Shown here: positions 10,155 to 37,308 of the stretch, one piece after another | Numbering within the stretch: the stretch's first letter is position 1 | Layout of the letters: each line of letters begins with the position of its first letter | IMG/VR virus record: IMGVR_UViG_3300021961_010974 | Location: 1 to 41,732 of that record | Length of the DNA stretch: 41,732 bases | Reading direction: 5' to 3' (one strand) | From: a virus | Notes under the pieces: generated by a model | Told to the model about the DNA's origin: nothing | Databases searched by the model: none | Seen by the model: the letters and a program-made list of their open reading frames with translations, nothing else | Position numbers and translations under genes: made by a program

Positions 10155-10985
10155 CTAGAACTTCTGTTTAACTCCTCCTGCAGTAGAATAAGTTTGTAAA
10201 GAAGGTTCATCTTCAAAATGCTTTTTCATTAATTCTACATTTCTTAAATCATCATCTGAAAATCCTATTCTAGGAACAAATTTATTTTTGACGTCATCTT
10301 TGATATACAACTTTTTTCCTAATTGTTTGGCTTGTTGTTTTACATAACTAATAAATTCCTTCATTGCCATAACCTTTAATTCCTCCGGAGACGCAGCACT
10401 TTCACCCTGACCAAACGAGACGGGGTAAAATTTGAGAAGGTCCATATAATCACGTATTATTTCTAACTCATTTTTTTCTTCTAAACCTGAGATATCACGA
10501 AATTTTTTCAGATTCTTAATTAATAAGTTTTTATTGATACCCATATGGTCAGATACAATCATATTGAACACACCTTCCTTTAAAGTTGATGGGTTATGAC
10601 CACGAGCAGTTATGATTGAAAAGATGGAACCATTATTAATTGCTTCCACAAAATCAGACCAAGCCGGACCTGGTTTAGCCTTCATTGCATCAATAAGGAA
10701 TTGCTTATCCCCTTTAGTTGTGAAATTTCTAAAAGCATCTTTTGCAAAACCAACAATTGTATTTCCTTTATATTTGAAAGGTTCTTTACCAATCTGTACA
10801 CGGTATTCCGCAAAATCTTCTGTTGACATACCGATTTCATCACCATCATCAGATAGTACGATGATTTCAGTGGGCATTTGAAGGATATTATCATCCCAAT
10901 CAAACGCATAATATTTCATGTCTGGCGTACCTACGTCATCGAAACCTTCCGATAACAATGACGTAGGATTTTTATAGTTTTTCAT
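10155..10985 (-). CDS. HAD-superfamily phosphatase-like protein
   Basis: HAD phosphohydrolases use an Asp nucleophile. Motif I is at residues 27-32 (AFDWDD, the hhhDxD pattern with D29 and D31). Motif II is SIITARG at 123-129 with T126. Motif IV is GFSDDD at 241-246 with candidate metal-binding Asp residues. The motif III Lys may be K216 or K224. The 276-residue length and the long cap between motifs I and II resemble phage-encoded HAD proteins; the substrate is unknown. The first 14 residues (MKNYKNPTSLLSEG) end in L-S-E/G, the form cleaved by the T4 prohead protease gp21, so the protein may be packaged in the head. It sits between the sheath and tube genes with a 19-nt gap to the sheath stop, suggesting co-expression with abundant tail proteins. 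Confidence 0.7.
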   Translation of the reverse strand: MKNYKNPTSLLSEGFDDVGTPDMKYYAFDWDDNILQMPTEIIVLSDDGDEIGMSTEDFAEYRVQIGKEPFKYKGNTIVGFAKDAFRNFTTKGDKQFLIDAMKAKPGPAWSDFVEAINNGSIFSIITARGHNPSTLKEGVFNMIVSDHMGINKNLLIKNLKKFRDISGLEEKNELEIIRDYMDLLKFYPVSFGQGESAASPEELKVMAMKEFISYVKQQAKQLGKKLYIKDDVKNKFVPRIGFSDDDLRNVELMKKHFEDEPSLQTYSTAGGVKQKF

Positions 10986-16046: not shown

Positions 16047-17816
16047 TTGGAATTGGCAAGTCACATATCAGACGTTTCAATCTTAGAACGTAAGGCGTTG
16101 GACCTTTTGGATAAATACGAAGGTGCCAACAATTACATATTGCGTTTAAAACAAAAGATGATGACCAATCCGAAGTTTTATCCCACCCGAGCTCAATCTG
16201 AGTATATCATAAACTTTCATAAGTCCGTTCCAAAGGTTGCCAAAAAATGGGTGGAATTGGATTCTTACTTTGCACAAAGAATTGCAGATGACAAACTATT
16301 CACCAAAGTTCCCGAAAAAGTTTATGTTGAAAAGTTATTGGTAGAAAAAGACACCTCATATCATATTTGGGGAAAGTTCTTTGAGTCAGAGTCCATCCAT
16401 GATTTTTGGTTACCCAAGGTTGCATTGATGAAGGACAATACCGTGAAGAATGTTGTAATAGAGTATTCAAAATATTCCAACAGACCTCCGTTGGAACACC
16501 AAAAGGAGTCCATTCAAAAATTATGTGAAAATAAAAAGTTTATTTTGGCCGATGATATGGGTTTGGGAAAAACAACATCCACCATCATCGCCGCTTTGGA
16601 GACAGGAGCGAAAAAAGTATTGATTGTTTGTCCCGCCTCCCTGAAAATAAATTGGCAAAGAGAGATTGAGAATTATAGTGACAGAACTATTTCAATCATT
16701 GATGGAAAAAAATGGGAGGACGCCGACTTTGTCATTATCAACTACGATATCATCAAGAATTTCCACGATGAAAAAAACAAAAAAGAATCCGTACTCCTGA
16801 ACTCCAAGTTTGACTTGATGGTTATCGATGAAGCACATTACATCCAAAACAAACAAGCACAAAGAACCAAACTAATCAACGACTTTGCAAAGAATATCGA
16901 AAGATTGTGGTTACTAACCGGTACCCCCATCACAAGTAGACCCATCAACTACTTCAATCTTCTGAACCTTATTGAAAGTCCTGTGGCTCTGAACTGGATG
17001 GCATACGTAAAAAGATATTGTAACGGATATCAGTTCAAAGCAGGACGAAGAAAGGTGTGGAACGTAAGTGGTGCATCCAATTTGGAAGAACTTAGAGACA
17101 GAACCGCACCTTTGGTTTTAAGAAGACTCAAAGAAAATGTGTTGGACCTTCCCGATAAAATTATCACACCTGTGTACCTAAGACTAAAATCCAAAGAGTA
17201 CGAATCTTTGATGGGGGATTATTATGCGTGGTATGACAAGGGGGGTGAAGCCAATTCAATGACCCTTCAATTCACCAAACTTACTCAAGTCAGACAATGT
17301 ATTTCTCAGGAAAAAGTTTCATCAACGATTGAACTTTGTGAGAACATTATTGAACAAGGAAAAAAGGTGATTGTCTTTACCAATTTCACTCGTTCTTTAG
17401 AAATGATATTGGAACACTTTGGTAAGAAAGCCGTCAGACTTGATGGTAGTATGAGTCAAAAAGATAGACAAGTTTCTGTGGATAGATTCCAAAACGATGA
17501 AAATGTGATGGTGTTTGTTGGTAACATCAAAGCGGCAGGTACAGGTTTAACTCTAACAGCGGGGGAGGCTGTTGTGATGAACGACTTATCCTTTTTACCA
17601 TCCGACCATTCACAAGCCGAAGACAGAGCATACCGATTTGGTCAAAAAAATAACGTATTGGTTTATTATCCAATTTATGAAAACACGATAGAAGGAATCA
17701 TCTATGATATACTCAAAAAGAAAAAAGAAATTTTTGAAACTGTAATGGGTGATAACGTAGGTCAAACGGATTTTGTCGAAGATATTCTTTCATCTATCAA
17801 TAACATGAGAAGATAA
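16047..17816 (+). CDS. SNF2/SMARCAL1-like DEAH helicase (SF2)
   Basis: This 589-residue protein has a full set of SF2 Snf2-type motifs. Motif I is DDMGLGKTT (about residue 170), motif II is DEAH (about 259), motif III is LLTGTP (about 286), motif V is GTGLTLTAGE and motif VI is QAEDRAYRFGQ (about 540). These proteins translocate on double-stranded DNA with ATP and can remodel forks or protein-DNA complexes. In T4, UvsW fills a related role, but this family is closer to annealing helicases such as SMARCAL1. The first 130 residues carry no motif I recognise. The start is a TTG at 16047 (MELASHISDV); the next in-frame ATG is about 37 codons later and would remove conserved-looking sequence. No Shine-Dalgarno sequence is visible. 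Confidence 0.85.
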   Translation: MELASHISDVSILERKALDLLDKYEGANNYILRLKQKMMTNPKFYPTRAQSEYIINFHKSVPKVAKKWVELDSYFAQRIADDKLFTKVPEKVYVEKLLVEKDTSYHIWGKFFESESIHDFWLPKVALMKDNTVKNVVIEYSKYSNRPPLEHQKESIQKLCENKKFILADDMGLGKTTSTIIAALETGAKKVLIVCPASLKINWQREIENYSDRTISIIDGKKWEDADFVIINYDIIKNFHDEKNKKESVLLNSKFDLMVIDEAHYIQNKQAQRTKLINDFAKNIERLWLLTGTPITSRPINYFNLLNLIESPVALNWMAYVKRYCNGYQFKAGRRKVWNVSGASNLEELRDRTAPLVLRRLKENVLDLPDKIITPVYLRLKSKEYESLMGDYYAWYDKGGEANSMTLQFTKLTQVRQCISQEKVSSTIELCENIIEQGKKVIVFTNFTRSLEMILEHFGKKAVRLDGSMSQKDRQVSVDRFQNDENVMVFVGNIKAAGTGLTLTAGEAVVMNDLSFLPSDHSQAEDRAYRFGQKNNVLVYYPIYENTIEGIIYDILKKKKEIFETVMGDNVGQTDFVEDILSSINNMRR

Positions 17817-17859: not shown

Positions 17860-19389
17860 ATGAAAGATATTAAGACTAAAATTGATTCTCTTGAGAATCA
17901 ACTTAAGGAAAATAGAACAACGAGAGACTCACAAAAATCAATTTCCGAAAGTAATATTCCTGTAGAAAAATTACCTTACTCATATTCATCACTCAAGTCA
18001 TTTATTGACCCTGAAACAATGAATATCCATTATAACAAACACTATAAAGGTTATATCGATAAACTCAATCAAGCATTATCTGAAAAAGATAGTGAACTGA
18101 GTTTAGAACAGATTGTAAGAACTATTGAAAGATTCAATAAGGTTATTCGAGATAACGCCGGAGGTGCCTACAACCACTCCCTTTTTTGGAAGATGTTATC
18201 TCCTAAACCAATGTCTCCAAGAGGATTCATCCTCAAAAAAATCAAACAAAATTTCGGAAGTTTTTCACAATTCAAGAAAAAGTTTGAAGACCAAGCAAAA
18301 AGTAGATTTGGTTCAGGATGGGTTTGGTTGATTCTCACAAAAAGAGGAACCCTAAAAATCATGACAACCCCAAACCAAGACAATCCACTTATGGATGTCG
18401 TCAAACAAGGTGGTCACCCTCTATTAGGATTGGATTTATGGGAACACGCCTACTATCTCAAATACAGAAATAAAAGAGATGAATATATCAAAAACTTTTG
18501 GAAGGTTGTGAATTGGGATTTCGTAGAAGAAGTACTTCAAAAACAAACAAAAGATAATTTAGAAGAAAGTGTCAAAGTAAGAGAATTCTTGACCGAATCC
18601 GCTAAGAGCGAACCATGTTCATCAAGTGAAAAAAATTTAGCAAAAGAACTATTCAACCAAAATAGGTCAGTACTAAAATTATACAAAGAAGCAATTATGC
18701 AAATTTTGAAGGACGTATACCCCTCAAAATATTATAATAAAGGAGAATTTGCCCCCAACCAACTTTCAGGTATCTATAACTTAGAAACAAAAGGAAGGTC
18801 CGTAATCAACTACCTCAACACCAATTACAGCGCATTTTGTGTGTTGAAAAAAGACCTGAACAAATACCTCTCTAAAGTGGGTGAACCCGTGATTGATTTT
18901 CAAAACAAAAATTTCGAAGAACAAGTTCAAGAAATGAAAAGAATGTTAGAATATATCAACTCACTAAAATTTAGAATTTTCTCTACCGATTCCCAAACCC
19001 TACAAACTATCATAAATGTTATGGGTAAAACCCAAGAAAAAGGTGGAAAAACCGAAGACATCGTCACACAAAAACTAAAAAATAAATTTGGTGAAACAAA
19101 CGTAAAAAGAATCGGTGAATTAGGAAGTAAGGAAGATATGATGGGGGTTGACATAAAAGTCATCGTTGATGGAAAAGAATTTACAGGACAAGTCAAACCG
19201 TTTAGTCAAATTGAAAAAGTGGACAATTCATTAAGAATAACAGGGACCGCGAACGTAAAAAAATACAACACCGATTGGATGATATTTTTACGTGCTGGTA
19301 AAGACATGATTATTTTTGATAATAAAAATACTGAAATAAAAGATGGGGTTTACTATTTCCCTGAAAATTCTGTTTTGTACCAATTCTAA
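17860..19389 (+). CDS. Mn-type superoxide dismutase fused to PD-(D/E)xK-like nuclease domain
   Basis: Residues about 34-228 form a complete Fe/Mn superoxide dismutase, which turns superoxide into oxygen and peroxide. All four metal ligands are visible: H57 (IHYNKH), H106 (YNHSLFW), D192 and H196 (LDLWEHAYY). The gateway residues H61 and Y65 are also present. The NAGG before YNHSLFW and the NQDNPLM with Q173 match Mn-type rather than Fe-type enzymes. Residues 240-249 (VREFLTESAK) form a possible L-T-E/S prohead-protease site. Residues 255-390 are helical and unrecognised. Residues about 395-509 look like a restriction-endonuclease fold: a helix with E399, then GVD (D431), then FTGQVK (Q444, K446), the D-QxK pattern of Mrr-like nucleases. 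Bacterial SODs have about 200 residues; this protein has 509. It lies between a helicase and a neck gene. The nuclease call is weaker than the SOD call. Confidence 0.85.
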   Translation: MKDIKTKIDSLENQLKENRTTRDSQKSISESNIPVEKLPYSYSSLKSFIDPETMNIHYNKHYKGYIDKLNQALSEKDSELSLEQIVRTIERFNKVIRDNAGGAYNHSLFWKMLSPKPMSPRGFILKKIKQNFGSFSQFKKKFEDQAKSRFGSGWVWLILTKRGTLKIMTTPNQDNPLMDVVKQGGHPLLGLDLWEHAYYLKYRNKRDEYIKNFWKVVNWDFVEEVLQKQTKDNLEESVKVREFLTESAKSEPCSSSEKNLAKELFNQNRSVLKLYKEAIMQILKDVYPSKYYNKGEFAPNQLSGIYNLETKGRSVINYLNTNYSAFCVLKKDLNKYLSKVGEPVIDFQNKNFEEQVQEMKRMLEYINSLKFRIFSTDSQTLQTIINVMGKTQEKGGKTEDIVTQKLKNKFGETNVKRIGELGSKEDMMGVDIKVIVDGKEFTGQVKPFSQIEKVDNSLRITGTANVKKYNTDWMIFLRAGKDMIIFDNKNTEIKDGVYYFPENSVLYQF

Positions 19390-19418: not shown

Positions 19419-20537
19419 ATGGCAGTAATCCCAGAACCAGAAAGAACCGCACTTTATAATAGAATTTTAAATCTATTAGGTGCACCACTCAGAGCGGTAG
19501 AATTGGAGTATGATATGATGGATTCTTTGTTGGAACTATCAATCGGGGATTATGCTCAATATGTTCAAGATTGGTTAATTGAATCTCAATGGACGAGTTT
19601 GTACGGAATGAACTTGGACACACAATCTTTAGCAAATGCACTTATTCGTAGAACACTTGATTGGGAAACACAATATACCTATTCATATTCTAAAATCGTG
19701 GGTTTACAAAACTCAGGTCCATGGGTTCTGAAAAAAGACTATATTCAGTTGGTTCCTAATCAACAGGTTTATGAGATTCCCGCATGTCGCGAACTCAATG
19801 AACTTCTTTGGTTCTCACCCGCAGAGGAAAACAATATGTTATTTGACCCATGGTCTTTTGGTGCTTTAGGTGGACCTGGTGGACTCGGAGGTCCTGGTGG
19901 TTTTGCACAAGCCGGTTATGGTGGTGGTGGATATTTTTTCTTCTCTTCTAATGATATTATTTCACGTCTTCAAGATATCAATATAAAAAGACGTTTGATT
20001 CAACCGGATTTAAGTTATAGAGTAACAGCACTTCCTGATGGAAAACACGCCATTTGGTTATACAATACACCAGGTGGTAAATTTGATTTTGGTGACGGTG
20101 AATTGATGAGAGGACGTGTGTGGTACCATTATTATGAGGCATGTGGTGACGAAAGAGATTTATGTTTAAAGGATAATCCTGACATCGTTAAATTACCATC
20201 AGATATTCCATTAGAGTCAATGTCTTGGATTGACCTCAATGACCCTGCAAGAATTTGGGTTAGAAGATGGTTTACCGCATATTGTAAAGAAACTTTAGCC
20301 AGAGTTAGAGGTAAATTTAGTGGTAACCTAAAAACACCTGATAGTGAAGTAACTATGGATTACACATCTTTGCAAACAGAAGCAAAAGATGAAAAAGTTA
20401 CTTTAGTGACCGAACTCAAAGAAAGGTTAGAAAGATTGCGTCCTGAAAATCAAATGAAAAAAGAGGCGGAAATTGCCACTAACCTTAACACTCAGTTGAA
20501 GTATAGAGCAATGCCTATTCCTATAACTGTTGTGTAA
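19419..20537 (+). CDS. Neck protein, gp13-like
   Basis: This 372-residue protein fits T4-group gp13 neck proteins, which complete the head and bind the tail. The N-terminal helix pattern (LYNRILNLLGAPLRAVELEY, then MMDSLLELSIGDYAQYVQDW) is the usual LGAP-V-E-body start of this family. The middle has an IPACRELNELLWF strand region. The C-terminal part (DPARIWVRRWFTAYCKETLA, then RVRGKFSGNLKTPDSEVTMD) matches the conserved helix and Gly/Pro turn. A Gly/Pro-rich insert at about residues 147-175 (GALGGPGGLGGPGGF, then GYGGGGY) is unusual. T4 gp13 has 309 residues. It lies on the strand opposite to the gp14- and gp15-like genes, so the neck set is split between two transcription units. Confidence 0.7.
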   Translation: MAVIPEPERTALYNRILNLLGAPLRAVELEYDMMDSLLELSIGDYAQYVQDWLIESQWTSLYGMNLDTQSLANALIRRTLDWETQYTYSYSKIVGLQNSGPWVLKKDYIQLVPNQQVYEIPACRELNELLWFSPAEENNMLFDPWSFGALGGPGGLGGPGGFAQAGYGGGGYFFFSSNDIISRLQDINIKRRLIQPDLSYRVTALPDGKHAIWLYNTPGGKFDFGDGELMRGRVWYHYYEACGDERDLCLKDNPDIVKLPSDIPLESMSWIDLNDPARIWVRRWFTAYCKETLARVRGKFSGNLKTPDSEVTMDYTSLQTEAKDEKVTLVTELKERLERLRPENQMKKEAEIATNLNTQLKYRAMPIPITVV

Positions 20538-24207: not shown

Positions 24208-25905
24208 TCAATTTTCTCTTCTTTCGTGAGGTTTGTAATATTTGATTCTATCGTGCCAAATAGGTGACGCCAAACAAACTGCAGGTCTCAAACCACCTTC
24301 TTTGGTCATCTGATACATATGAGACATCCATGTTTGTTCGTAAGGATGAGCCCACTTTGTGTCGATAAACATTTTCTGATTACCTTCTTTACTGACAATC
24401 ATCGGCCAGTTTGCGTAATAAATTTCACCATCAATATAACATAAACCATCAAGGTTTCTGATGTTTTTGAAGTTCGTCAAAGGTACATTGGGGTCCAAAC
24501 CATGAACGGGAAGTTTGTCATAATCAGGCCAATCTCTTGTTCGGATATGTTGGGGAACATTATACCATGAGCATTGTTTGTCATTATCAAAGTAAACTTC
24601 AGTGAATGTCATCTTCAAGAAATCAAACTTCTCTTTCAACATGATTCTGTGTAACATGTTGTATAAATTTGGAATATATTTCCTGAAACCATTTCTACAG
24701 AATTGTCCTTCATATTCGGGAGGGTTGACCGTCATATCATCCTCAAAGAAGAACATGAAGTCCGCATCAGACTCATGAAAGTGTTCAGCCGCCGCTTGTC
24801 TTCCACCACAAATACCTGTATTACCTCCTAAGTTCTTGTATTCAAAATTGTATTGAGCAGCAATTTCCTTATTTCGTACAATTGCATCATTGTCTGTTGA
24901 GTTGTCCAACAAAATCAAGTTTGGTTTAGTCAACCACTCGGGTGTCTTTTCCATTGATTTGATGGTGTGAAGTACTTGTTCAGGAAAGTTGAATGTTAGG
25001 ATGTATAAATTTGTTTTATAATTTTCGACATCTCTATCAGAGTATCTTATTGGGTTAGCAATTTTTTTCTTTTCTACTTCCACTAAAGAAACGGTCTTTT
25101 CAACAAGGGCTTGTGTGAATTTCACAATCAATCCATTTCCATCCAATTCAAATCTACGATACAAATCAGGTTCGGTATAAGACATGATGGTAAAAATACT
25201 TTCTTCAGTACCCATCAACCCTTCACCAAGAGTTCTGTCCAATAATGAATAATAAGCAGCATTGGCTTCTCTTAATTGGTCTTTATGACCACCAAATAAA
25301 CCACCTCTACAAACATATTTTACATCTTTACCTGAATATCTGTTTATGGCATCATACTTGAATCCATGGATTTCATTCTCAGCATCATAAGGATAACTCA
25401 AGAATAAAAATGGATTACCATGTTGGGGTAAATCATTCAAACAATTATTTTCAACTAAATGGGAATAAGGTACTGTATTTGTAATTCCAGCGTCTAACCA
25501 AAAAAAGTATTCAGTATCAAATGGATTCCATATCGATGCGTCGTTCATCATGAACATTTTCGATTGGACAATAGGGTTATACCACTCTAAAGAAGCTTGT
25601 GGTGATGAACCCAACCAACCTGCACCATTAATCCAATCAGGGTTTGTTCTTACACTTTGAGTTCTATCCCAAAAAGGGTTATAAAGTCTTTTTACGTCTT
25701 CCAAAGACATAATTTTTACAAAAGTATTTTCTCTACTTCTTTTTTCCCATACCAAATGCTCAAGTTCTAACGGAACATAAATGAAAAGATTTTGAGGGAT
25801 ATCTAAAAATCTTTTGAAGTTCTCTATGTAATGGTGAAATGGTCTACCAGTTCGATTTATGTCCCAAAGACCTGTGACAATGGTCATATTTTTATTAGGT
25901 TCCAT
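24208..25905 (-). CDS. Two-domain glycosyltransferase: HtrL/YibB-like plus GT2
   Basis: In this 565-residue protein the N-terminal half (residues about 8-290) resembles the HtrL/YibB/WlaTC family of putative glycosyltransferases: VTGLWDINRTGRPFHHYIEN, then NLFIYVPLEL, then FFWLDAGITNTV (near 135), where LDAG is the family signature. The C-terminal half (about 305-550) is a GT-A fold family 2 transferase: NLYILTFNFPEQVLHTIKSM, then NLILLDNSTDNDA, GGNTGICGGRQAAAEH, and a DxD-type FFFEDDMTVNPPE (near 390). The fusion may add two sugars in sequence. It is the last gene of a minus-strand cluster with sulfotransferase, carbamoyltransferase and two other transferases, and starts 3 nt after the sulfotransferase stop. 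The acceptor (virion protein, host surface sugar, or DNA) is not shown by the sequence. Confidence 0.75.
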   Translation of the reverse strand: MEPNKNMTIVTGLWDINRTGRPFHHYIENFKRFLDIPQNLFIYVPLELEHLVWEKRSRENTFVKIMSLEDVKRLYNPFWDRTQSVRTNPDWINGAGWLGSSPQASLEWYNPIVQSKMFMMNDASIWNPFDTEYFFWLDAGITNTVPYSHLVENNCLNDLPQHGNPFLFLSYPYDAENEIHGFKYDAINRYSGKDVKYVCRGGLFGGHKDQLREANAAYYSLLDRTLGEGLMGTEESIFTIMSYTEPDLYRRFELDGNGLIVKFTQALVEKTVSLVEVEKKKIANPIRYSDRDVENYKTNLYILTFNFPEQVLHTIKSMEKTPEWLTKPNLILLDNSTDNDAIVRNKEIAAQYNFEYKNLGGNTGICGGRQAAAEHFHESDADFMFFFEDDMTVNPPEYEGQFCRNGFRKYIPNLYNMLHRIMLKEKFDFLKMTFTEVYFDNDKQCSWYNVPQHIRTRDWPDYDKLPVHGLDPNVPLTNFKNIRNLDGLCYIDGEIYYANWPMIVSKEGNQKMFIDTKWAHPYEQTWMSHMYQMTKEGGLRPAVCLASPIWHDRIKYYKPHERREN

Positions 25906-25908
25906 ATT

Positions 25909-26502
25909 TTAAAATGTGTATCCAAATTTATTTATTTCATTTTGTGACACTTTAGCCACTATATCAATCAATTCATCGGTGTAAAAATCTTGATAGTTTT
26001 CAGGGTATTCATGACCAAAATAATTTTCATGATTAATACCTAAATTTTCGTTATGTTGTAAGTAAGGAATATCGAAATTTTCACACAAACTCTCCAACTC
26101 ATCATCCAATCTTTCAAACTTAATCACCTCATCATAAACGAATAAAGGGTCATTGAAAGTGAAAGTAGATTGGGGTACGTATAAATCTTTCTTCAAATAA
26201 CTTTCGAATGTTTTATACCATTGTTTCTCGTTATCGGGAACAATTTCAATATTGAGTTTTCTTTTTTCGGTCTTATGAATATACAGACTTACCGCATGTG
26301 CCCATGGATTCCGAACAACAAAATATTTCTTAAAATTCTTTATTATATTTTCATATTCTAATGGAAATTTTTTCTTTACCATAGTATACGTAGCGTGTTG
26401 GTGAGCCAATAGTTTACTATGGACAATAGTTCTTAAAATTGTGTGAGAGCCACTTTTAGGTGGTGTAATAACAGCAATTTTATATAACTCCGAATATACC
26501 AT
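25909..26502 (-). CDS. Sulfotransferase-like protein (PAPS-dependent)
   Basis: This 197-residue protein has both nucleotide-binding elements of PAPS-dependent sulfotransferases. The 5'-phosphosulfate loop is TPPKSGSHT (residues 14-22, the PKxGSxT form). The 3'-phosphate element is FVVRNPWAHAVSLYI (about 61-75, RNPxxxxxSxY). A C-terminal helix (YTDELIDIVAKVSQNEINKF) is typical of carbohydrate sulfotransferases, where a Tyr and Asp precede the last helix. The protein is shorter than most family members (about 250-300 residues). Its start shares one base with the carbamoyltransferase stop (TAATG). It would transfer sulfate from host-made PAPS to a sugar or protein, if active. Confidence 0.7.
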   Translation of the reverse strand: MVYSELYKIAVITPPKSGSHTILRTIVHSKLLAHQHATYTMVKKKFPLEYENIIKNFKKYFVVRNPWAHAVSLYIHKTEKRKLNIEIVPDNEKQWYKTFESYLKKDLYVPQSTFTFNDPLFVYDEVIKFERLDDELESLCENFDIPYLQHNENLGINHENYFGHEYPENYQDFYTDELIDIVAKVSQNEINKFGYTF

Positions 26503-28088
26503 TATTTTCTAAAGTAAAAATCTTGTAATAATAAACAATCCATTTGTGTGTTTTCATAGACTTTTACCGCGTCCATGTATCGTGATAAGATTGGTTTACC
26601 GTTCACATTGAATGAAGTATTCAATAGTACACCAATACCAGTCTCTTTTTCAAATTCAGTAATCAAGTTGTACAACCAAGGATTCTGTTCTTCAGTAACT
26701 GTTTGGACCCTTGCGGTTCCATCTACGTGAGTAATGGATACTAACTTTTCTCTCCATTCTTCTTTCACGGTTGGACAAAATCCCATCCATCTACTTTCTC
26801 CCTCGAAATTGAAATACTTGGAAACATCTTCCAATCTTACTACAGGTGCAAATGGTCTATACCACTCTCGATTTTTTACTTTAGCATTTAGAACATCCTT
26901 CATATCAGGATATGTTGGATTACACAAAATACTTCGATTACCCAATGCTCTTGGTCCATGTTCAGAAGTGTCACGAACAACTCCAACAATTTTTCCATTC
27001 TTCAAATCATCAACTAACTTGGGAATTTCTAATTTGGTCGCTCGTTTATCTTCTACATAACTCATCAAAGTATCACGGTCTAATATAGAAATACCCGCAT
27101 ATGTCAAATCAATAGATGTTTCAGGTTTGATATGATTCAAAATCATTCCCGCAGCAATACCACAATCGTTGGGATTTGGTGGTACAAAAACACCTCTATC
27201 TAACTCCTCTTTCAATCGAGTGTTTAATAAAATATTCAAACCACAACCTCCAACAACAATCAACGGTAAATCAGGATATTGTTCCAAAAATGGATTCATA
27301 ATATCCAAAAAAACATTTTCAAAAGCTTGTTGTGAAGTCATAGCGACATCATAAGCATCGTCACCAAACAGACGGTCTTTTACACTAAATGTAATTCCAA
27401 TTTTTTCACCCAATTCTTTGATAAACCCTCTGAAGTTTACACCATCAGGTTTTTTTCTATAATATTCCTCAAAATGAGGTAACCATTCTTCCCTTACTTT
27501 ACCGTATGAACATAACCCCATAATTTTTCCTGAATAAACTAAATTACCAATACTCAGTGCTGGTTCATGTTTGATATCACCAAGGTAGTCACCAAAAGAC
27601 ATATATGGAAACCCTAAATCAATAGGAAATTTATCAATCAATTTTATTTCCTTTCTGTCTTCCGCGACATATACATTGAAAAATCCATCGTTACCTCCAC
27701 CATCAAAAGATACTATTAAAGCATCTTTATAATCAGATTGATAATATCCACAAGCGGCATGACTCTCATGGTGCATAGTTCCCACATAGTTTTCTGCAGG
27801 AATCATTTTATGGTGATGATATCTTACCTCATCTTCAATACAATCCGTATTCAAAAAATAACAGGTTTCATATTCTTCAATACCAAATTCCTTTTTGATA
27901 TATTCCAAAATTTGTTTTACCAAATAAGGTCTTGTGTATGATACCAAATATTGAGAGTATCCTGCATTTTTTTGATTTAAAAATCTCTCTATTTCTATTA
28001 CGGTGATTACCTTTCCATCTTTTTCTACCGCAATTGCAGAATTGTGTGACCCGTAAAATGCTATGTTAGCTTTAGAATTATTACTCAT
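26502..28088 (-). CDS. O-carbamoyltransferase, NodU/CmcH/TobZ family
   Basis: This 528-residue protein matches the two-domain carbamoyltransferase family, which moves a carbamoyl group from carbamoyl phosphate via carbamoyl-adenylate to sugar hydroxyls. The N-terminal Kae1/TsaD-like domain has YGSHNSAIAV at the start, metal-site HHESHAACGYY (about 103-113), FDGGGNDG (about 128-135) and GGCGLNILLN (about 255). The C-terminal domain has EHGPRALGNRSILCNPT (near 360), KVKNREWYRPFAPVV, and LLNTSFNVNGKPIL near the end. All are diagnostic and intact. The gene overlaps its downstream sulfotransferase by one base and starts 1 nt after a GlcNAc-transferase stop, so it belongs to the same operon. The target is probably a sugar made by the neighbouring glycosyltransferases. 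Confidence 0.9.
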   Translation of the reverse strand: MSNNSKANIAFYGSHNSAIAVEKDGKVITVIEIERFLNQKNAGYSQYLVSYTRPYLVKQILEYIKKEFGIEEYETCYFLNTDCIEDEVRYHHHKMIPAENYVGTMHHESHAACGYYQSDYKDALIVSFDGGGNDGFFNVYVAEDRKEIKLIDKFPIDLGFPYMSFGDYLGDIKHEPALSIGNLVYSGKIMGLCSYGKVREEWLPHFEEYYRKKPDGVNFRGFIKELGEKIGITFSVKDRLFGDDAYDVAMTSQQAFENVFLDIMNPFLEQYPDLPLIVVGGCGLNILLNTRLKEELDRGVFVPPNPNDCGIAAGMILNHIKPETSIDLTYAGISILDRDTLMSYVEDKRATKLEIPKLVDDLKNGKIVGVVRDTSEHGPRALGNRSILCNPTYPDMKDVLNAKVKNREWYRPFAPVVRLEDVSKYFNFEGESRWMGFCPTVKEEWREKLVSITHVDGTARVQTVTEEQNPWLYNLITEFEKETGIGVLLNTSFNVNGKPILSRYMDAVKVYENTQMDCLLLQDFYFRK

Positions 28089-28089
28089 T

Positions 28090-29373
28090 TTAATTTTTCA
28101 AATTAATTTCATGTCTTTCAGCCCATCCTCTTATTGGAGAGTGAGCCCAAAAAACAACTCTCGATGGGTCCTTATCTGTCATAAACATTTCTTCATAGTG
28201 AATTGGACCATCTCCATTTAGAAATCTTTGTAAGTCAGAACCATCAATAGAACGAGACTTAATTCCAATACCATTCTCATCATCAAATGCAATTAGAACT
28301 GAATCATAATCATCCTTATCTAACATATATCTCTCAACATTAACTAAGTGATAAAAAGAGTATGTAAATGAGTTTTCCCATTCTTCTTCTGTTTCAAACT
28401 GTGGATTGGGTGGGAATTTATTTTGAATTGTGTGCATTTGGAATGATTTTCTTTTGAAGTGTATTCCAGCATACTTTTCATAATCTCTCACGGTTCGTTT
28501 TTTTCCAAGACCATAACCTGTTAGGTCGTGACCATTATCTTCGACACCCAAAAGTTGTCTAATTCTTGACCGAGCAACATCTTGTTGTTTCCACCAAGCA
28601 GATTCACCTCTTTTATGTTGGTCATCCCAAACTAACATTCCACTTCTTTCTTCTCTCATAGTCGCATGCCATATAACAACTCTATGTGGGTGGAATAAAT
28701 CATATCCATGAGTGAATGACCGAACTGTCAAATTTAATTCTTCACCACTGAAGAAAATATTTGGGTCGTGTCTAACATCTTTAGCCCATTTGTTAGGACC
28801 AAATGCAAAGTGTCCACTAAGGAATCTAGCAGGATATGGTTTTTTCAAACTCTGCCAATTAGGAACACCCGTTGGTCGAATAAAAATTGTACCAAACGGA
28901 TAAAAAGACGCGGCTTCAGACAACCATGGTTCCTTAACTCTTTTTGCGGGGTCATTATATGGGTCATAATAAGGTAGATATCCACAAATTAAAGGATTAT
29001 GACCTTCTTTCTTTAAGTCTTGATACCAACCAATTAATGCTGAATCCCAATTTTTATCAAATCTATGGTGTGAGTCTAACTGACAAACAAAATCTTCATC
29101 AGTTAATAATTCCTCGTTGATTACCGCTCTTGCATATGCCAACCCTTTAGCTTCAGTATATAGAATATCTTTTATCTTGAACCTTGGGTCATCACGATAT
29201 TCATCTAAATTATCAAATCCATCTTCAGGGTTATATTGTCTGCAAATCCCAAAGTGAATTCTTTCAGGGTTTTTTGCATTTTCTAGTGCACTCTTTATTG
29301 TGGGAATCAATTCTGGTTCACGATACGCAGGTAGGTGAACCAAAATTGTCATTTTATCCTTACTTTTTCTCAT
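28090..29373 (-). CDS. GlcNAc-transferase family (GT60-like) protein, copy 2
   Basis: This 427-residue protein matches the family that includes the Skp1 and mucin-type polypeptide GlcNAc-transferases (Pfam GlcNAc, GT60-like). Visible marks are ILVHLPAYREPELIPTIKSA at the N-terminus, then RIHFGICRQYNPEDGFDN. The DxD-like metal site is DFVCQLDSHHRFDKNWDSAL (near 97). A conserved centre FLSGHFAFGPNKWAKDVRHD is followed by FFSGEELNLTVRSFTHGYDL, FHPHRVVIWH and a C-terminal YEKYAGIHF. The architecture parallels the adjacent gene, so the two are tandem paralogues. The ATG overlaps the end of the upstream copy by 14 nt. Family members use UDP-GlcNAc and act on Ser, Thr or hydroxyproline; the acceptor here is unproven. 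Confidence 0.8.
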   Translation of the reverse strand: MRKSKDKMTILVHLPAYREPELIPTIKSALENAKNPERIHFGICRQYNPEDGFDNLDEYRDDPRFKIKDILYTEAKGLAYARAVINEELLTDEDFVCQLDSHHRFDKNWDSALIGWYQDLKKEGHNPLICGYLPYYDPYNDPAKRVKEPWLSEAASFYPFGTIFIRPTGVPNWQSLKKPYPARFLSGHFAFGPNKWAKDVRHDPNIFFSGEELNLTVRSFTHGYDLFHPHRVVIWHATMREERSGMLVWDDQHKRGESAWWKQQDVARSRIRQLLGVEDNGHDLTGYGLGKKRTVRDYEKYAGIHFKRKSFQMHTIQNKFPPNPQFETEEEWENSFTYSFYHLVNVERYMLDKDDYDSVLIAFDDENGIGIKSRSIDGSDLQRFLNGDGPIHYEEMFMTDKDPSRVVFWAHSPIRGWAERHEINLKN

Positions 29374-30619
29374 ATAATGTTCCTTCCATTCTGTTTACCC
29401 AACCTTCACTCATTGAATGTGGCCAAACAATCCATTTATATGGTCTCACTGCTGTGTTAAAACTTCTCCACAATTTACAGTAACCATCGGGGTCATTTTT
29501 CATTTGTTTAATCTCAGGCTCATTAGCATCTAATCTAACAAGTTCGTTACCATTTTCATCTTCAAAAGCAACCGCCCAAACATTGTAATCATCGTGGGGT
29601 ACTTGCGCAAACTGAATATCAATACAGTGTTTGAATACTGAAGCAAAAGAATTTGCATATTCAATAGGGTCTTCAATATGTGGATTAGGTGGATATTTTT
29701 GGTCTAAAGTCCATTGTTGAACTGACCTTCTTCCAAATGAAATACCAGAGTATCGTTCATAGTCTTCAAGAGTTCTTATAGGTCCAAAACCAAAAATTCC
29801 AAATTCGTTCGGGTCATAAACTTCACCATCCATACTAAACAATTTTCTATTTTTAAGATGTGAAGTATCGTTATTTTTCCACCATTCACCATTATCGTCC
29901 CAGTGTTTTTTCAATCCTTTTCTTGTGTATTGATGCCAAATAATAACATTATGTAGATGGAATAGGTCATAACCCCATGTAAATGCTCTTACCGCAATAG
30001 AAATCTCTTCACCATGAAAATAATACTCAGGGTCATGTGGAACTTCTTTTACAAAATCACCGGTTGTAAATGCAAAGTGTGCTGAATAAAACCTTGCTGG
30101 TACAGGACTCTTCTTTTCTTTATAATCATCAATAGTTGAAGGCATAAAATGGACATTACCATCGGGGGAGAATCTATCGAAATTCATTCTCCAAGGTACT
30201 GTCAATCTTGACTGTGGGTCCATATCAGGCTCAAAAGAGGGTACATATCCTGTCAACAAAGGTTTTTTATATCCCTTTTTTTGTAGTTTCTTATACTCTT
30301 TTATTAATAAATCATCCCAATTTTTTTCAAATCTCATGTGAGAATCAATCTGAAGTGTATAGGTCTCACCATCATATAATTGTTGAATAAGGCTTCTTGC
30401 CCAACATACTCCTTTGGATTCTAAATGAGGAATATTTAGTATTTTGAACCTTTTATCATTATCAAATTGAGATAAATCGTCAAACCCGTCCTCTTCACTG
30501 AATTGACGAGCAATACCAATTACCAAATTTTTAGGTCTTTTAGCATTTTCCAACATGTTTTGAATTGTTGGAATTAGTTGGGGGTCACGATAAACCGCTA
30601 ACTGTACAAATATTTTCAT
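29360..30619 (-). CDS. GlcNAc-transferase family (GT60-like) protein, copy 1
   Basis: This 419-residue paralogue of the next gene shares the order and motifs: IFVQLAVYRDPQLIPTIQNM, NLVIGIARQFSEEDGFDDLS, metal site YTLQIDSHMRFEKNWDDLLI (near 97), RFYSAHFAFTTGDFVKEVPH, YYFHGEEISIAVRAFTWGYD, LFHLHNVIIWHQY and YERYSGISFGRRS. DSHMRF is the most typical metal-site form of this family. It is the first gene of the glycan operon, 80 nt downstream of a gene with a Ser/Thr/Pro-rich tail, so its transcript may follow that gene. I see no good TATTTATA box just upstream, unlike the structural genes. It may attach GlcNAc to Ser or Thr, perhaps in the repeat proteins encoded next door. Confidence 0.8.
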   Translation of the reverse strand: MKIFVQLAVYRDPQLIPTIQNMLENAKRPKNLVIGIARQFSEEDGFDDLSQFDNDKRFKILNIPHLESKGVCWARSLIQQLYDGETYTLQIDSHMRFEKNWDDLLIKEYKKLQKKGYKKPLLTGYVPSFEPDMDPQSRLTVPWRMNFDRFSPDGNVHFMPSTIDDYKEKKSPVPARFYSAHFAFTTGDFVKEVPHDPEYYFHGEEISIAVRAFTWGYDLFHLHNVIIWHQYTRKGLKKHWDDNGEWWKNNDTSHLKNRKLFSMDGEVYDPNEFGIFGFGPIRTLEDYERYSGISFGRRSVQQWTLDQKYPPNPHIEDPIEYANSFASVFKHCIDIQFAQVPHDDYNVWAVAFEDENGNELVRLDANEPEIKQMKNDPDGYCKLWRSFNTAVRPYKWIVWPHSMSEGWVNRMEGTLYEKK

Positions 30620-31078: not shown

Positions 31079-34000
31079 TTATAATAGTGGTATATTCCAT
31101 TTATTTGATAAATAGGGCTCAATAACATCTAACTCAGATGGGGAAAGAGCTCTACTGTAAACTAACACATCGAACAAAAATCCATTATAATAGTATTGTT
31201 CAGTTCCTGATGCTTGTGGAGTATAAGAAACTCCCATAAATATATAATTCGTAAGTGATGACGTTGTTGTACCAACATTTGATGGGAATGTCATCGTCTG
31301 TTCAACAGAATCAATTCTGAATTTCAATCTATCTGTATTATTCGTTCCTGAACCACTAAATACAATCGAGAAAATGTGAGGATTTGTATCTACTGGTGTA
31401 CCTGATACCACACCAAATCCACCTGCTTCAGCAACGTTATAGGTACCACCACTTTGTCTTAGGAATACAGAATTTAATCCTGTATTTCCATCTTGACCTC
31501 CTTGAATATATTGTTCGGTCGTACCACTGTTCAAAACACGAGCAACCACTATTATAGTTTCACCCGAGTTCGAAGCTAAATCTGTTAAAGGATTTACACT
31601 AGACCCCATGGCAATACCATCGTAATAAGTCCCGCCCAATCCATTTTGTACGTTACTCCACCATTCGGGTTTACAAGACCCACAAATAGAATTGGCGTTA
31701 TGTGCACTTGAGGACGAGTCAACCCATTGATTAAATGTATCACCACTACTTGGTGTTGGTGTGTAATAAGTCGCTAAATTACCTTGATAATAAATTTCAA
31801 GTGTTGGGTCAGTCGGTATGATGGCTTGAGTTGGTGACGGTGTTATCGAGACTGATATAGACGGCGTTATTGAAATTGTTGGTGAAACTGAAATACTTGG
31901 TGTTACCAAAATTGTTGGTGAAACTGAAATACTTGGTGTTACCGAAATTGTTGGTGAAACTGAAATACTTGGTGTTACCGAAATTGTTGGTGAAACTGAA
32001 ATACTTGGTGTTACCGAAATTGTTGGTGAAACTGAAATACTTGGTGTTGGGCTAACAGAAATACTTACCGTTATCGATGGGGTTACAGAAATGCTAATCG
32101 ATGGTGTTGGAGATGGTGTTGATGACACACTTATTGAAGGAGTTGCCGAAATACTAATTGAAGGAGTTACAGAAAGACTAATAGAAGGAGTTACTGACGG
32201 GGTCGCAGAAATACTGATAGAAGGAGTTGCAGAAATACTAATAGACGGAGTAGCAGAAATACTAATAGATGGTGTAGGGGAAGGTGAAGAAGAAACACTG
32301 ATAGACGGAGTTGTAGATATACTAATAGATGGTGTAGTAGATGGTGTAGCAGAAATACTGATAGATGGCGTCGCAGATACACTAATAGATTGTGTAATCG
32401 ATGGTGTTACTGACGGTGAAACTGATGATGTAATTGAAATAGACGGAGTAATAGATGGAGTAACAGATGAAGTCACAGATGGAGTTACAGAACTACTTGG
32501 AGTCACAGATGGTGTTACCGAAGGAGTAACTGAAGATGTTGGAGTTGCGGTTACAGAACTTGGTGGTGTAGGAGATACACTTGGAGTTACGGATGGTGTT
32601 GCAGAAATAGAAATTGAAGGTGTTGCGGAAATCGATATACTTGGCGTTGTTGATATTGATATTGAAGGTGTAGTAGATGGTGTTACAGATGGAGTAACAG
32701 AAATACTGATAGACGGAGTTGCTGAAATACTGATAGATGGTGTAGGAGATGGAGTAGAAGAAATACTGATAGACGGAGTTGCAGTAACCGATGGTGTTAC
32801 AGATGGTGTGGGAGTAGAAGATATAGAAATTGATGGTGTGGGAGTAGAAGATATGGAAATAGATGGTGTAGGAGATACACTTGGAGTTACGGATGGTGTT
32901 GCAGAAATTGAAATTGAAGGTGTTGCGGAAATAGAAATTGAAGGTGTTGCAGAAATACTGATAGATGGTGTAGGAGATGGTGTAGAAGAAATACTAATAG
33001 AAGGCGTCGGTGTTATTGATGGGGTAACTGAAGGTGTTGGACTAACAGAAATAGATGGAGTCACGGATGGTGTTGGACTAACAGAAATAGACGGAGTCAC
33101 GGATGGTGTTACCGAAGGAGTAGGAGTTGGACTCGCAGGAATAAACTCGTAATCACAATCACAATCATCAATAACCTCACAATTCAAACAATAAGGATTC
33201 AACAAATCATAAACAGGTTGCAACACCCTTGCGTTGTGTTGAATTTCAGGAACCGATAAAGGTTTGGCATACATGTGGAAAGTAGAAATACCCCCATCAA
33301 AAGTACCGGCAAAATATTTCTCCAACATAATATTGGTAGTAAGTGCCGACAGACTTGTACCACTCAAAATATTATCAGGGAATAATTCGGGGTCTTGAAT
33401 GTACTCACCACAGAATGTCTGTGGCATTGCTGAGAAGACTAAATTCTCATGTAATCCTTGTGTACCACCACCCCATGAAATATTGAATGGGACACCCACT
33501 TGAACTTCTTTGTGTGCGTATAACGGTCGTGGGATAATCTCTTCAAAATCATCAAAGGTCTCAAAGTGTTTTCCGTTTACATATAGTTTCAACTTACCTA
33601 CACGATAGAACCTTTCCAGTAACCACAAATAATTCAACTCCACCCATTCGTCTTTTTCGGGGACTAATTGTTCGTGAGTTGTTGGGGGTTCTATTAATGA
33701 TACAGAATTGTTGGCGGTTGTCGCGGTATATAAGTCAGTTGAGATTGTACCTAAACCACCTCTGTAATATAAATCACAGAAGTCCATCCACGTATATCTC
33801 TCAAAGACCGCATCTACTAATACCCAATGTTCTTTATTTATATAATCAGTTCCAAGACAATCATCATAGATTCCATTTGTTGAACAGTAATTGTTCACAG
33901 AATATCCTGTGACTGTTTCAGGTCCTAAAGTAACACAAGAACCTGAATATATACAATCACCTGTAAAGGTAAGTGTTCTAACACATATTTTCGGATTTCG

Positions 34001-35296
34001 TGGGTCACCACTAAATCGGATGGCCAACGCATTGGACATGGAGTCAAATAATGGGTCGTGTTCTGGCCATTCTTTTTTAACATCTCCATTACAACAAGAA
34101 CAAGTAGTACTAACCTGATGATAATCGGTATATCCTGTTGGGGGATAAACCAATACACAATATTGCTCAGCGTATTTTAGATAATCTACTTTATCGACAA
34201 TCCAATATGAGAACTCTCCTCTTCCGACTCTTTCTGTAATAACAAAGTGTAATTCACCTGTTATGATATCATATGTGGTAACAGTTCCTATAAGATAGTT
34301 AAGTGCATCGTGATAAAGTAAAATTTGGTCTCCTGTAGTCCATGACAAATTTTTGGCAACTGTTATGGTTGCACCTGAACTTGACATGTCTACTTTACTG
34401 AGAGTGGATGTTGAGTACCCTGGATTAAGATTTGTACACATACATGTACTCAAACCTGTTAGTTCATGTGTTACTCGTTCATAATTTGGGTCAGTAGAAT
34501 TTTTACCATCGGCGTGATGCCAAAACTTATTTTCGGCACGAGTTCCCATGTAAAAGAATATTCCTGAGTTATCAGGATAATAATCATTTAAGGTTGTTTG
34601 TCCTGAAGCTGGTGTATATTGGTCAATGAATCTTGGTTTTAAAGTCATTTCCACAGTCCATCCTTTTGGATATCTTGTTGGTAATACTTCATAATCATAC
34701 CCAAATAACTTGTAAAAACCTTGATAGAAACCACCATATAATTCATGATATATTCCGACCTTATTACTGTTGTAAGAGATAACATTATATAATGTACCGG
34801 CACTTACACCTGAGAATCTATGATTAGGGTCCCAAGTATAACCTGTAACTTGGAACATCTTAAATCTACGGTCATATTTCAATCTATCGAATTTCTCACT
34901 ATCATCTAATAGACCCATAGTGTAATCAATGGATTGACCTGTCATACACTCAAGTAATCCATTATCGGTACCAACTAACCCAATGTCACATATGGTTTTG
35001 GCAGAATAACAAGAAAGGTCTAAATCAAATGGATTATAATAATGAGAAGATACCAATATATTTTGGTCATTATAATTTTGGTAGTCTAATATAAACCCTT
35101 GGTTTGAACCTGAAAAATTCAAATCAATTTTAATTGGCATTACATCACCATCATTAACACCAATCACATAGGGTGAAAAAATAACCTCTTCGTTATAATC
35201 CCTTTCATCTGACGCTAATGATAGGTCAGAAATCTCCCTTACAGGTGCTAAATACCACTTATTATAGACGTATTGATTGATGTTCTGATATGCCAT
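31079..35296 (-). CDS. Giant fibre-like protein: LamG-like parts around mucin-like stalk
   Basis: This 1405-residue protein has three parts. Residues 1 to about 715 are a beta-rich structural region with LamG-like marks ([13 protein letters not shown] near 215, [20 protein letters not shown] near 575, [20 protein letters not shown] near 680). It also holds Cys clusters ([21 protein letters not shown]). Residues about 718-1155 are a stalk built almost only of Pro, Ser, Thr, Ile, Val and Ala in units such as PSISISAT and PSVTPSIS. Residues about 1165-1405 form a second concanavalin/LamG-like domain ([45 protein letters not shown]). There is no signal peptide. A tail fibre or adhesin with a flexible, possibly glycosylated stalk and a sugar-binding head is the best reading. 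The start is 5 nt after a GGTATTTATC box. Confidence 0.75.
31831..33140. repeat. Degenerate repeat array encoding Pro/Ser/Thr stalk
   Basis: About 1.3 kb of short degenerate repeats of roughly 24-36 bp encode PSISISAT- and PSISVSPT-type units. The pattern is visible on the plus strand as many copies of GGTGTTGCAGAAATACTGAT and relatives. Similar copies occur at about 30710-30810 in the 109-residue gene, so the two loci share repeat units and could recombine. Confidence 0.85.
31875..32048. repeat. Near-perfect 36-bp tandem repeat, 4.8 copies
   Basis: A 36-bp unit starts at 31875, 31911, 31947, 31983 and 32019 (plus-strand start ATTGTTGGTGAAACTGAAAT). Copies differ at a single base (CAAA or CGAA) except for the truncated last copy. 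Each unit adds 12 residues to the stalk ([12 protein letters not shown], with one copy changing V to L). Its uniformity next to the degenerate array shows recent expansion. There are no spacers, so it is not CRISPR. Confidence 0.95.
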
Positions 35297-36610: not shown

Positions 36611-36907
36611 ATGGAACAATTACCTTTAGATTACTCTCAACCTGCAAATAAATTAACTGCAATTGCTGACATAGAGAGAAAGAAAAACATTGTAAAAAAT
36701 GACTATACACAACAAGGGAGTAAGTATTCATCAACTAACCCAGATGCGGTAGGTGATGGTGATACTCTTGGAAGAGGTACGGGCGTCTTTTTGGATATTT
36801 ACAATGATGCCGCTGGCACATCTGTAGATGTATTTGAAAGAAAAATGAATATTAAATTCAACGCATATCAACCTGACAAACCCTACAACGTAAACGGAGT
36901 AGTATAA
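36611..36907 (+). CDS. Unrecognised 98-residue protein
   Basis: This short, soluble, Asp/Asn/Gly-rich protein starts 1 nt after the previous stop. The only notable parts are a basic N-terminal helix (ADIERKKNIVKNDYTQ), a Gly-rich loop (GDGDTLGRGTGVFLDI) and a Tyr/Pro end (NAYQPDKPYNVNGVV). Its stop overlaps the next start in a TAATG arrangement at 36907. No family or function can be assigned. Presence in a tight operon with the same strand and base use as its neighbours supports a real gene. Confidence 0.5.
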   Translation: MEQLPLDYSQPANKLTAIADIERKKNIVKNDYTQQGSKYSSTNPDAVGDGDTLGRGTGVFLDIYNDAAGTSVDVFERKMNIKFNAYQPDKPYNVNGVV

Positions 36908-37308
36908 TGAAATTATTAGAATCTCTACGTGGTCTATTATTGGAAGCGGCATCTATTGATGATATCCGTAAGGCAATCGATTTAAAACAAGTTTGCACAA
37001 TAGATTATCAAGGAGATGTACCAGGTGGTGAGGGTATCAGAGAAATTGAACCTGTTGCGTTAGGTCGTTCTAAAAAAGGAAACTTAGTTTTTAGAGCGTG
37101 GGAAAGAGATGGTGCATCACACACCGCTTATATTGGAGACCCTCACTCACCAAAACCAGGATGGAGATTATTCAGACTAGATAAAACCAATTTGTTTAAA
37201 CCAACTAGGGAAACCTTTACAACCCCTAGACCTGGTTATAACTTTAATGGTGATAAAGACATGGTACAAATAATCACGATTGCAAAATTTGACACACAAG
37301 AACAATGA
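36907..37308 (+). CDS. Stand-alone WYL-like domain protein
   Basis: In this 133-residue protein residues about 20-100 follow the WYL-domain pattern: IRKAIDLKQVCTIDYQGD, then GIREIEPVALGRSKKGNLVF, then RAWERDG, and WRLFRLDKTNL. This matches the sequence of strands with I.Y, R.I.P..L, G...+.A and FRLD. WYL domains usually sit in bacterial regulators and bind ligands or nucleic acids; here no DNA-binding domain is attached. The N-terminus (MKLLESLRGLLLEAASIDD) ends in L-L-E/A at residues 11-14, like the capsid-targeting leaders of T4 internal proteins. A packaged, injected regulator is possible but unproven. Its start and stop overlap both neighbours (TAATG and ATGA). Confidence 0.6.
   Translation: MKLLESLRGLLLEAASIDDIRKAIDLKQVCTIDYQGDVPGGEGIREIEPVALGRSKKGNLVFRAWERDGASHTAYIGDPHSPKPGWRLFRLDKTNLFKPTRETFTTPRPGYNFNGDKDMVQIITIAKFDTQEQ

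Follow-up and report, generated by a model that had tools for sequence, protein, structure and literature searches.

A superoxide dismutase-nuclease-like fusion gene in uncultured tailed phages, a candidate precursor of packaged and cleaved head proteins

The window analysed here is a stretch of 41,732 nucleotides, positions 1 to 41,732 of IMG/VR virus record IMGVR_UViG_3300021961_010974. From its ATG start, the gene at 17860-19389 on the + strand is one open reading frame of 509 codons encoding 509 aa, in which a superoxide dismutase (SOD) domain is joined to a nuclease-like C-terminal domain. The reverse strand of this segment is stop-rich, with no competing frame of similar length there. 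The features of the locus are as follows.

16047..17816 (+), SNF2-type helicase, upstream syntenic neighbour (annotation, synteny)
17860..19389 (+), SOD-nuclease fusion gene, 509 aa (architecture also unbroken in 138 complete ORFs of fetched loci, the total after a second search in which some contigs were fetched twice)
17860..17949 (+), residues 1-30, variable N-terminal tag, putative capsid-targeting propeptide (alignment, model)
17941..17949 (+), residues 28-30, I-S-E, candidate prohead-protease site 1 (conserved column)
17959..18543 (+), residues 34-228, Fe/Mn superoxide dismutase domain (Pfam, PDB, and NCBIfam searches)
18028..18030 (+), H57, metal ligand (this and the next three: PDB SOD alignment, invariant in 40 relatives)
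18175-18177 (+), H106, metal ligand
18433-18435 (+), D192, metal ligand
18445-18447 (+), H196, metal ligand
18559..18567 (+), residues 234-236, L-E-E, candidate protease site 2 (conserved column)
18589..18597 (+), residues 244-246, L-T-E, candidate protease site 3 (conserved column)
18598..19011 (+), residues 247-384, helical region before the nuclease core (AlphaFold model)
19012..19386 (+), residues 385-509, PD-(D/E)xK nuclease-like core (AlphaFold, Foldseek, invariant residues)
19054..19056 (+), E399, predicted catalytic residue in a long helix (this and the next two: invariant in fused proteins, alignment A1, and in remote homologues, alignment A3)
19150..19152 (+), D431, predicted catalytic residue
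19189..19197 (+), Q444-V-K446, predicted catalytic QxK, core strand in the model
19419..20537 (+), head-tail adaptor (neck), downstream syntenic neighbour (phrog_211, 3e-9; synteny)

Elsewhere in the window, the - strand carries a probable fibre protein of 1405 aa with long SISATPS-type repeats (31079-35296), the repeat having an antisense ORF (32091-33152) as its by-product, and, at 24208-30619, genes resembling glycosyltransferases and sulfotransferases clustered with carbamoyltransferase genes, a set suited to glycan modification.

Both SOD domains score above the Pfam cut-off (Sod_Fe_C, 1.3e-41; Sod_Fe_N, 2.2e-20) and SODs in the PDB match at 1e-60 across residues 37-228. In NCBIfam, Mn- and Fe-SOD models are top-scoring, yet are under their curated cut-offs. 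As well as the four ligands, the gateway and second-shell residues H61, Y65, Q173, and E195 are found in the PDB SOD alignment and are invariant in the 40 relatives, bearing out a preliminary description, made from the sequence alone, in which residues 34-228 were said to retain every metal ligand and gateway residue. The Mn-type label given there is reasonable as a residue-based one (Gly at 102, Gln at 173), metal preference being something that sequence cannot decide. Fe/Mn SODs (SodA/SodB) likewise have all of these ligands and gateway residues in a domain of this native length; the phage SOD differs in being embedded in a putative precursor and in having Ala for the usual His after GG. This residue, A103 (18166-18168), directly follows the GG of the NAGGxxNH motif in all 40 phage SODs, and the equivalent position is His in 55 of 64 cellular SODs examined.

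Identity to the nearest Bacteroidota/FCB enzymes is 46-54 %, and the nearest cellular relatives of the SOD are almost all from Bacteroidota or related FCB bacteria, from which we infer a Bacteroidota donor and probably also a Bacteroidota host for these phages. The preliminary description overstated how unusual it is for a tailed phage to have an SOD at all, as the database search found SODs in relatives of Pseudomonas phage PA5oct and in a Vibrio phage, and freshwater phages have been listed as carrying them (PMC6802176). SOD-containing 'phage' records of small size, such as 1.5-kb Staphylococcus entries, were ignored because they look like host DNA.

For the C-terminal part, the AlphaFold model from 40 aligned sequences (pLDDT 88.9, pTM 0.82) has as its best Foldseek match in the PDB the PD-(D/E)xK homing endonuclease I-Ssp6803I (probability 1.00, E 5.7e-3, the best of E-values that are weak, we believe because the helical half of the query matches nothing), and archaeal Hjc resolvases match at probabilities up to 0.97. 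The model thus supports a PD-(D/E)xK nuclease-like fold with the expected alpha-beta core topology. The D431, Q444, and K446 pattern noticed in the preliminary description is at the positions given there and is invariant in the 40 relatives, and the nuclease suspected from it agrees with the predicted fold; overlooked there were E399, a glutamate of the helix, D426, which is also invariant, and the three [LIVM]xE sites described below. The predicted catalytic set E399-D431-Q444-x-K446 does not vary among the 40 fused proteins or among remote homologues without SOD, and D426 is likewise invariant in homologues 24-29 % identical. Once these remote homologues are added to the alignment (a protein of a 735-kb phage, a paralogue found in a 295-kb contig, and the homologue of this paralogue, all 24-29 % identical to the protein of the window), invariance is confined to the columns G395, E399, G422, D426, D431, Q444, K446, Y469, and F486, which have the appearance of an active site under selection. 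The D...QxK pattern near the C-terminus is kept in all 138 complete fused ORFs. Core topology and E-D-QxK residues are therefore shared with I-Ssp6803I and archaeal Hjc, whereas there is no sequence-level family match and an extra helical region lies in front of the core.

Residues 247-384 belong to no known family, with no convincing Pfam or PHROG match, and weak Pfam/PHROG matches of the C-terminal half were discarded as chance because they differ from member to member. The 509-aa protein has no match in PHROGs and no model match among the PADLOC anti-phage defence families. Two motif patterns found no cellular relative of the C-terminal domain in the GTDB genome collection, and a cellular origin was rejected on this basis; a search with the homologue from the 735-kb megaphage gave no matches, and the A3 profile is too divergent for a collection scan. 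The domain is present in other architectures. In the megaphage (L081:7743-8612; LR756501.1) it is a 290-aa protein without SOD. At L166:6530-7606 (-), a second, diverged copy of 359 aa, with its own short tag and without SOD, is found in the same phage as a fusion. An 1113-aa uncultured marine phage protein (BFVD A0A8D9CCA0) also holds the domain (TM-score 0.81 to the query).

The preliminary description knew of no SOD-nuclease fusion, and the one in this window is not unique. A search of IMG/VR identified 303 stretches encoding relatives of the query, from which 80 loci were kept, most with the full fusion; including the window, 79 sequences have the whole fusion as a single ORF. In a 40-row alignment, the fused proteins are 45-86 % identical to that of the window. 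An uncultured Caudovirales phage protein in UniProt (A0A6J5L953, 501 aa) is 46 % identical over 478 columns and has the same fusion of SOD and C-terminal domain, although its name says 'superoxide dismutase' only. In the loci compared, the gene order is neck genes, SNF2-type helicase, fusion, head-tail adaptor, small ORF, PolB. The unbroken ORF and the same gene order in many independent contigs rule against misassembly. That the halves are two always-separate genes was also rejected, the only split case being L095 (3272-4815), where the SOD and nuclease frames meet at the linker; the simplest explanation there is a one-base frameshift, either a sequencing error or a real split. Carriers of the fusion make up a large family of tailed, uncultured phages whose hosts are probably Bacteroidota.

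In one clade the SOD is absent, rather than a separate gene. Fifteen loci (11 distinct sequences or fewer once near-copies are removed) encode a 294-residue protein in the same place in the gene order. These proteins share an N-terminal segment with the fused forms (MKNTENKVNLIIEEIKK versus MKNIEEKINLISEEIKK) and resume in the linker. In a tree of 76 C-terminal domains they are one fully supported group nested among fused forms, requiring one change, the nesting resting on midpoint rooting of a tree without an outgroup root. The simplest reading is a single loss of the SOD in this clade. A 308-kb contig of the group has no SOD match anywhere.

The N-terminal 30 residues of the fusion are disordered and variable, with pLDDT below 50 at residues 21-30 in the AlphaFold model. 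Conservation is low across the first 29, but E30 is found in each aligned row extending that far. At site 1, [LIV]xE is present in all 39 aligned rows reaching it, with 12 kinds of residue at x; the 40th row (L071) shows the pattern, as LLE, when read from an upstream GTG. Site 2 is [LIVM]xE in 40 of 40 rows, with six kinds of residue at x, and site 3 is [LIM]xE in 39 of 40, with nine kinds (L055 being without it). SOD-less relatives keep the tag and have LSE/S at the place equivalent to site 3. Among 507 triplets of the fusion, these are the only three [LIVM]xE columns with a variable x, all of them outside the domains; the LWE of the SOD active site is invariant throughout and so is without a variable x. 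Nine neighbouring gene families have one such column in 3588 triplets. The p-value of this enrichment is modest (one-sided Fisher p=0.007), and the test counts sites of a short motif only, ignoring their placement at domain borders. Cutting after E30 would leave 7-8 residues before LPY, the median in cellular SODs being 7, and cutting after E236 would leave 17 residues after NW, the cellular median being 11 and the maximum 17. Sites 1 and 2, if cut, would bracket an SOD of native length. Across 125 ORFs, [LI]xE occurs at 14.4 per 1000 at residues 5-19 versus 5.5 beyond residue 100; this positional scan partly reflects composition, therefore the aligned families are relied upon instead.

In phage T4, the prohead protease gp21 cuts after L/I-X-E, and internal proteins are targeted to the head by propeptides of 10-19 residues, some of these proteins passing into the host by ejection (PMC9026906). 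T4-type propeptide targeting has also served to package and deliver foreign enzymes, and the T4 capsid precursor loses 65 residues (PMC9026906). The T4 IPI sequence record has ITE/A at 17-19. A Peptidase_S77 (gp21) domain is encoded in seven of 12 large related contigs, with no protease match in the other five, all of uncertain completeness. A Gp23-type capsid protein is present in all seven protease-bearing contigs as well, in every case with LINE/A at about residue 60, which would be comparable to the 65-residue loss in T4. These protease and capsid genes are seen in relatives only, lying outside the 41.7-kb fragment.

Similar tags are present on other proteins. The short protein at 36907-37308 (+) begins MKLLESLRGLLLE/A, with SLITE/A and SLILE/V in relatives, and its N-terminus is very like T4 internal-protein tags; each of the ten family members examined has [LI]xE at residues 11-13 (MKLxxxxxSLITE/A type). 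The 276-aa protein at 10155-10985 (-) has SLLSE/G, and its relatives LLE/G, INE/G, IVE/G, and IKE/G, with variable sequence preceding [LIV]xE/G in most members. This protein, which has a YYAFDWDDN motif that is HAD-like by eye and no Pfam match, may also be head cargo. Nuclease-domain paralogues have short T4-like tags, MGFKFLKILKTIITE/N (IITE/N) and MKQIKLVNVLKE/S (LKE/S), and the megaphage homologue has no obvious early [LI]xE tag. In the 295-kb contig G006 (L166, L182, and L183), N-terminal tags with [IL]xE at their end recur on many proteins that are otherwise unrelated; examples are RLTESDLTRIVRRVISE/Q, MKDLIRKILKE/E, MNLQENIHRIKEMMGLLIE/D, and MKIIITESQLSNLMTE/D. The pattern resembles a modular tag system.

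From the fusion itself, its residue conservation, fold match, synteny, and three motif columns, and from the protease and capsid genes of relatives, we infer packaging, cleavage, ejection, enzyme activities, and a purpose for the fusion. The product is likely to be internal head cargo of the T4 kind, which prohead cleavage would split into an SOD protein and a nuclease protein, both to be ejected with the DNA. The gene would encode a precursor of internal head (ejection) proteins of a T4-like contractile-tail phage, with residues 1-30 acting as a capsid-targeting propeptide. A gp21-type protease would cut after E30, E236, and E246 in the prohead, freeing a native-length SOD (31-236) and a 263-residue PD-(D/E)xK nuclease-domain protein (247-509), both of which would stay with the DNA in the capsid and pass into the host on infection. 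The SOD would then scavenge superoxide just as the phage enters, and the target of the nuclease would be DNA, whether that of the host genome or ends that are branched or damaged. Forms lacking the SOD would keep the tag and one site because their nuclease would still need targeting. A head-cargo precursor of tag, SOD, spacer, and nuclease is the simplest account covering the conserved glutamates, the native-length SOD, and the retained tag. The preliminary suggestion of a host-takeover protein fits such delivery, although no mechanism had been offered; the idea that the SOD shields a permanently attached nuclease is weakened because the two conserved linker [LIVM]xE sites would separate the halves, and also by the SOD-less nuclease clade.

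The main rival is a bifunctional enzyme acting in the cytoplasm during infection, its nuclease working with the SNF2-type helicase in Hjc-like recombination or repair, its attached SOD lowering superoxide near replicating DNA, and its [LIVM]xE columns being structural. The helicase is a fixed neighbour across loci, the fold matches are Hjc-like, and freshwater phages commonly carry genes for defence against reactive oxygen species (ROS), all of which would suit this explanation. It is nonetheless unlikely, as it does not anticipate a conserved Glu with a free neighbouring residue confined to the N-terminal tail and linker, sites that bracket a native-length SOD, or a tag that survives in forms without SOD.

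Improbable, by comparison, is a role at the portal, where the C-terminal protein would take the place of T4 gp4 or gp2 as a factor for head completion or DNA ends, the SOD being a passenger. The fusion gene does adjoin that of the head-tail adaptor, and four large relatives have no match to gp2 (phrog_429) or gp4 (phrog_218), the gp4 search being one without a positive control; against this, there is no profile similarity to the T4 gp2 DNA end protector (hhalign probability 0.1 %) or the gp4 head closure protein (0.12 %). Homology to gp2 or gp4 thus found no support; the short QVKGF of gp2 resembles QVKPF, but just seven columns align at 0.1 % probability. Least probable of all is a catalytically dead nuclease domain that only binds DNA, anchoring the SOD on the packaged genome. 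Gln in place of the more usual Glu at the (D/E)xK position would be explained; however, E399, D431, Q444, and K446 are invariant down to 24-29 % identity, where little else is, the linker sites would free the SOD from its anchor, and SOD-less forms persist.

Until now, phage SOD genes have been interpreted as auxiliary ones whose products are made in the course of infection. If this SOD is capsid cargo, it would be a phage-delivered enzyme acting on superoxide at the instant of infection, before any phage gene expression, and part of a wider modular tag system; the purpose of phage ROS enzymes would become directly testable. Domain-border [LI]xE motifs in which the middle residue varies freely would offer a sequence-only way to list ejected proteins of uncultured T4-like phages, and the nuclease-domain family is one previously without a convincing match in Pfam or PHROGs.

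Phage SODs, T4 internal proteins, and polyvalent injected proteins are already known. That a two-enzyme precursor is packaged in the head and split by the protease into an antioxidant enzyme and a nuclease, both delivered with the genome, has in our judgement slightly better than an even chance of being correct, and no paper linking SOD with prohead processing was found in the open-access literature. The abstract and section list of the work on polyvalent proteins (Iyer et al. 2017, PMC5512222) do not name SOD; as outlined there, these proteins similarly combine disparate enzyme domains in one injected polypeptide for which protease processing is proposed, by zincin-like metallopeptidases there and by the prohead protease here. 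With the T4 internal head proteins cut by gp21 (IPI-III, Alt), the fusion shares an N-terminal putative propeptide ending L/I-x-E, a T4-type prohead protease and capsid protein in related genomes, and proposed ejection. It differs in its tag, which has 30 residues rather than the 10-19 of T4 and a sequence unlike other tags of the clade, and in its proposed cargo, an SOD and a PD-(D/E)xK protein that would be separated into two products at internal sites.
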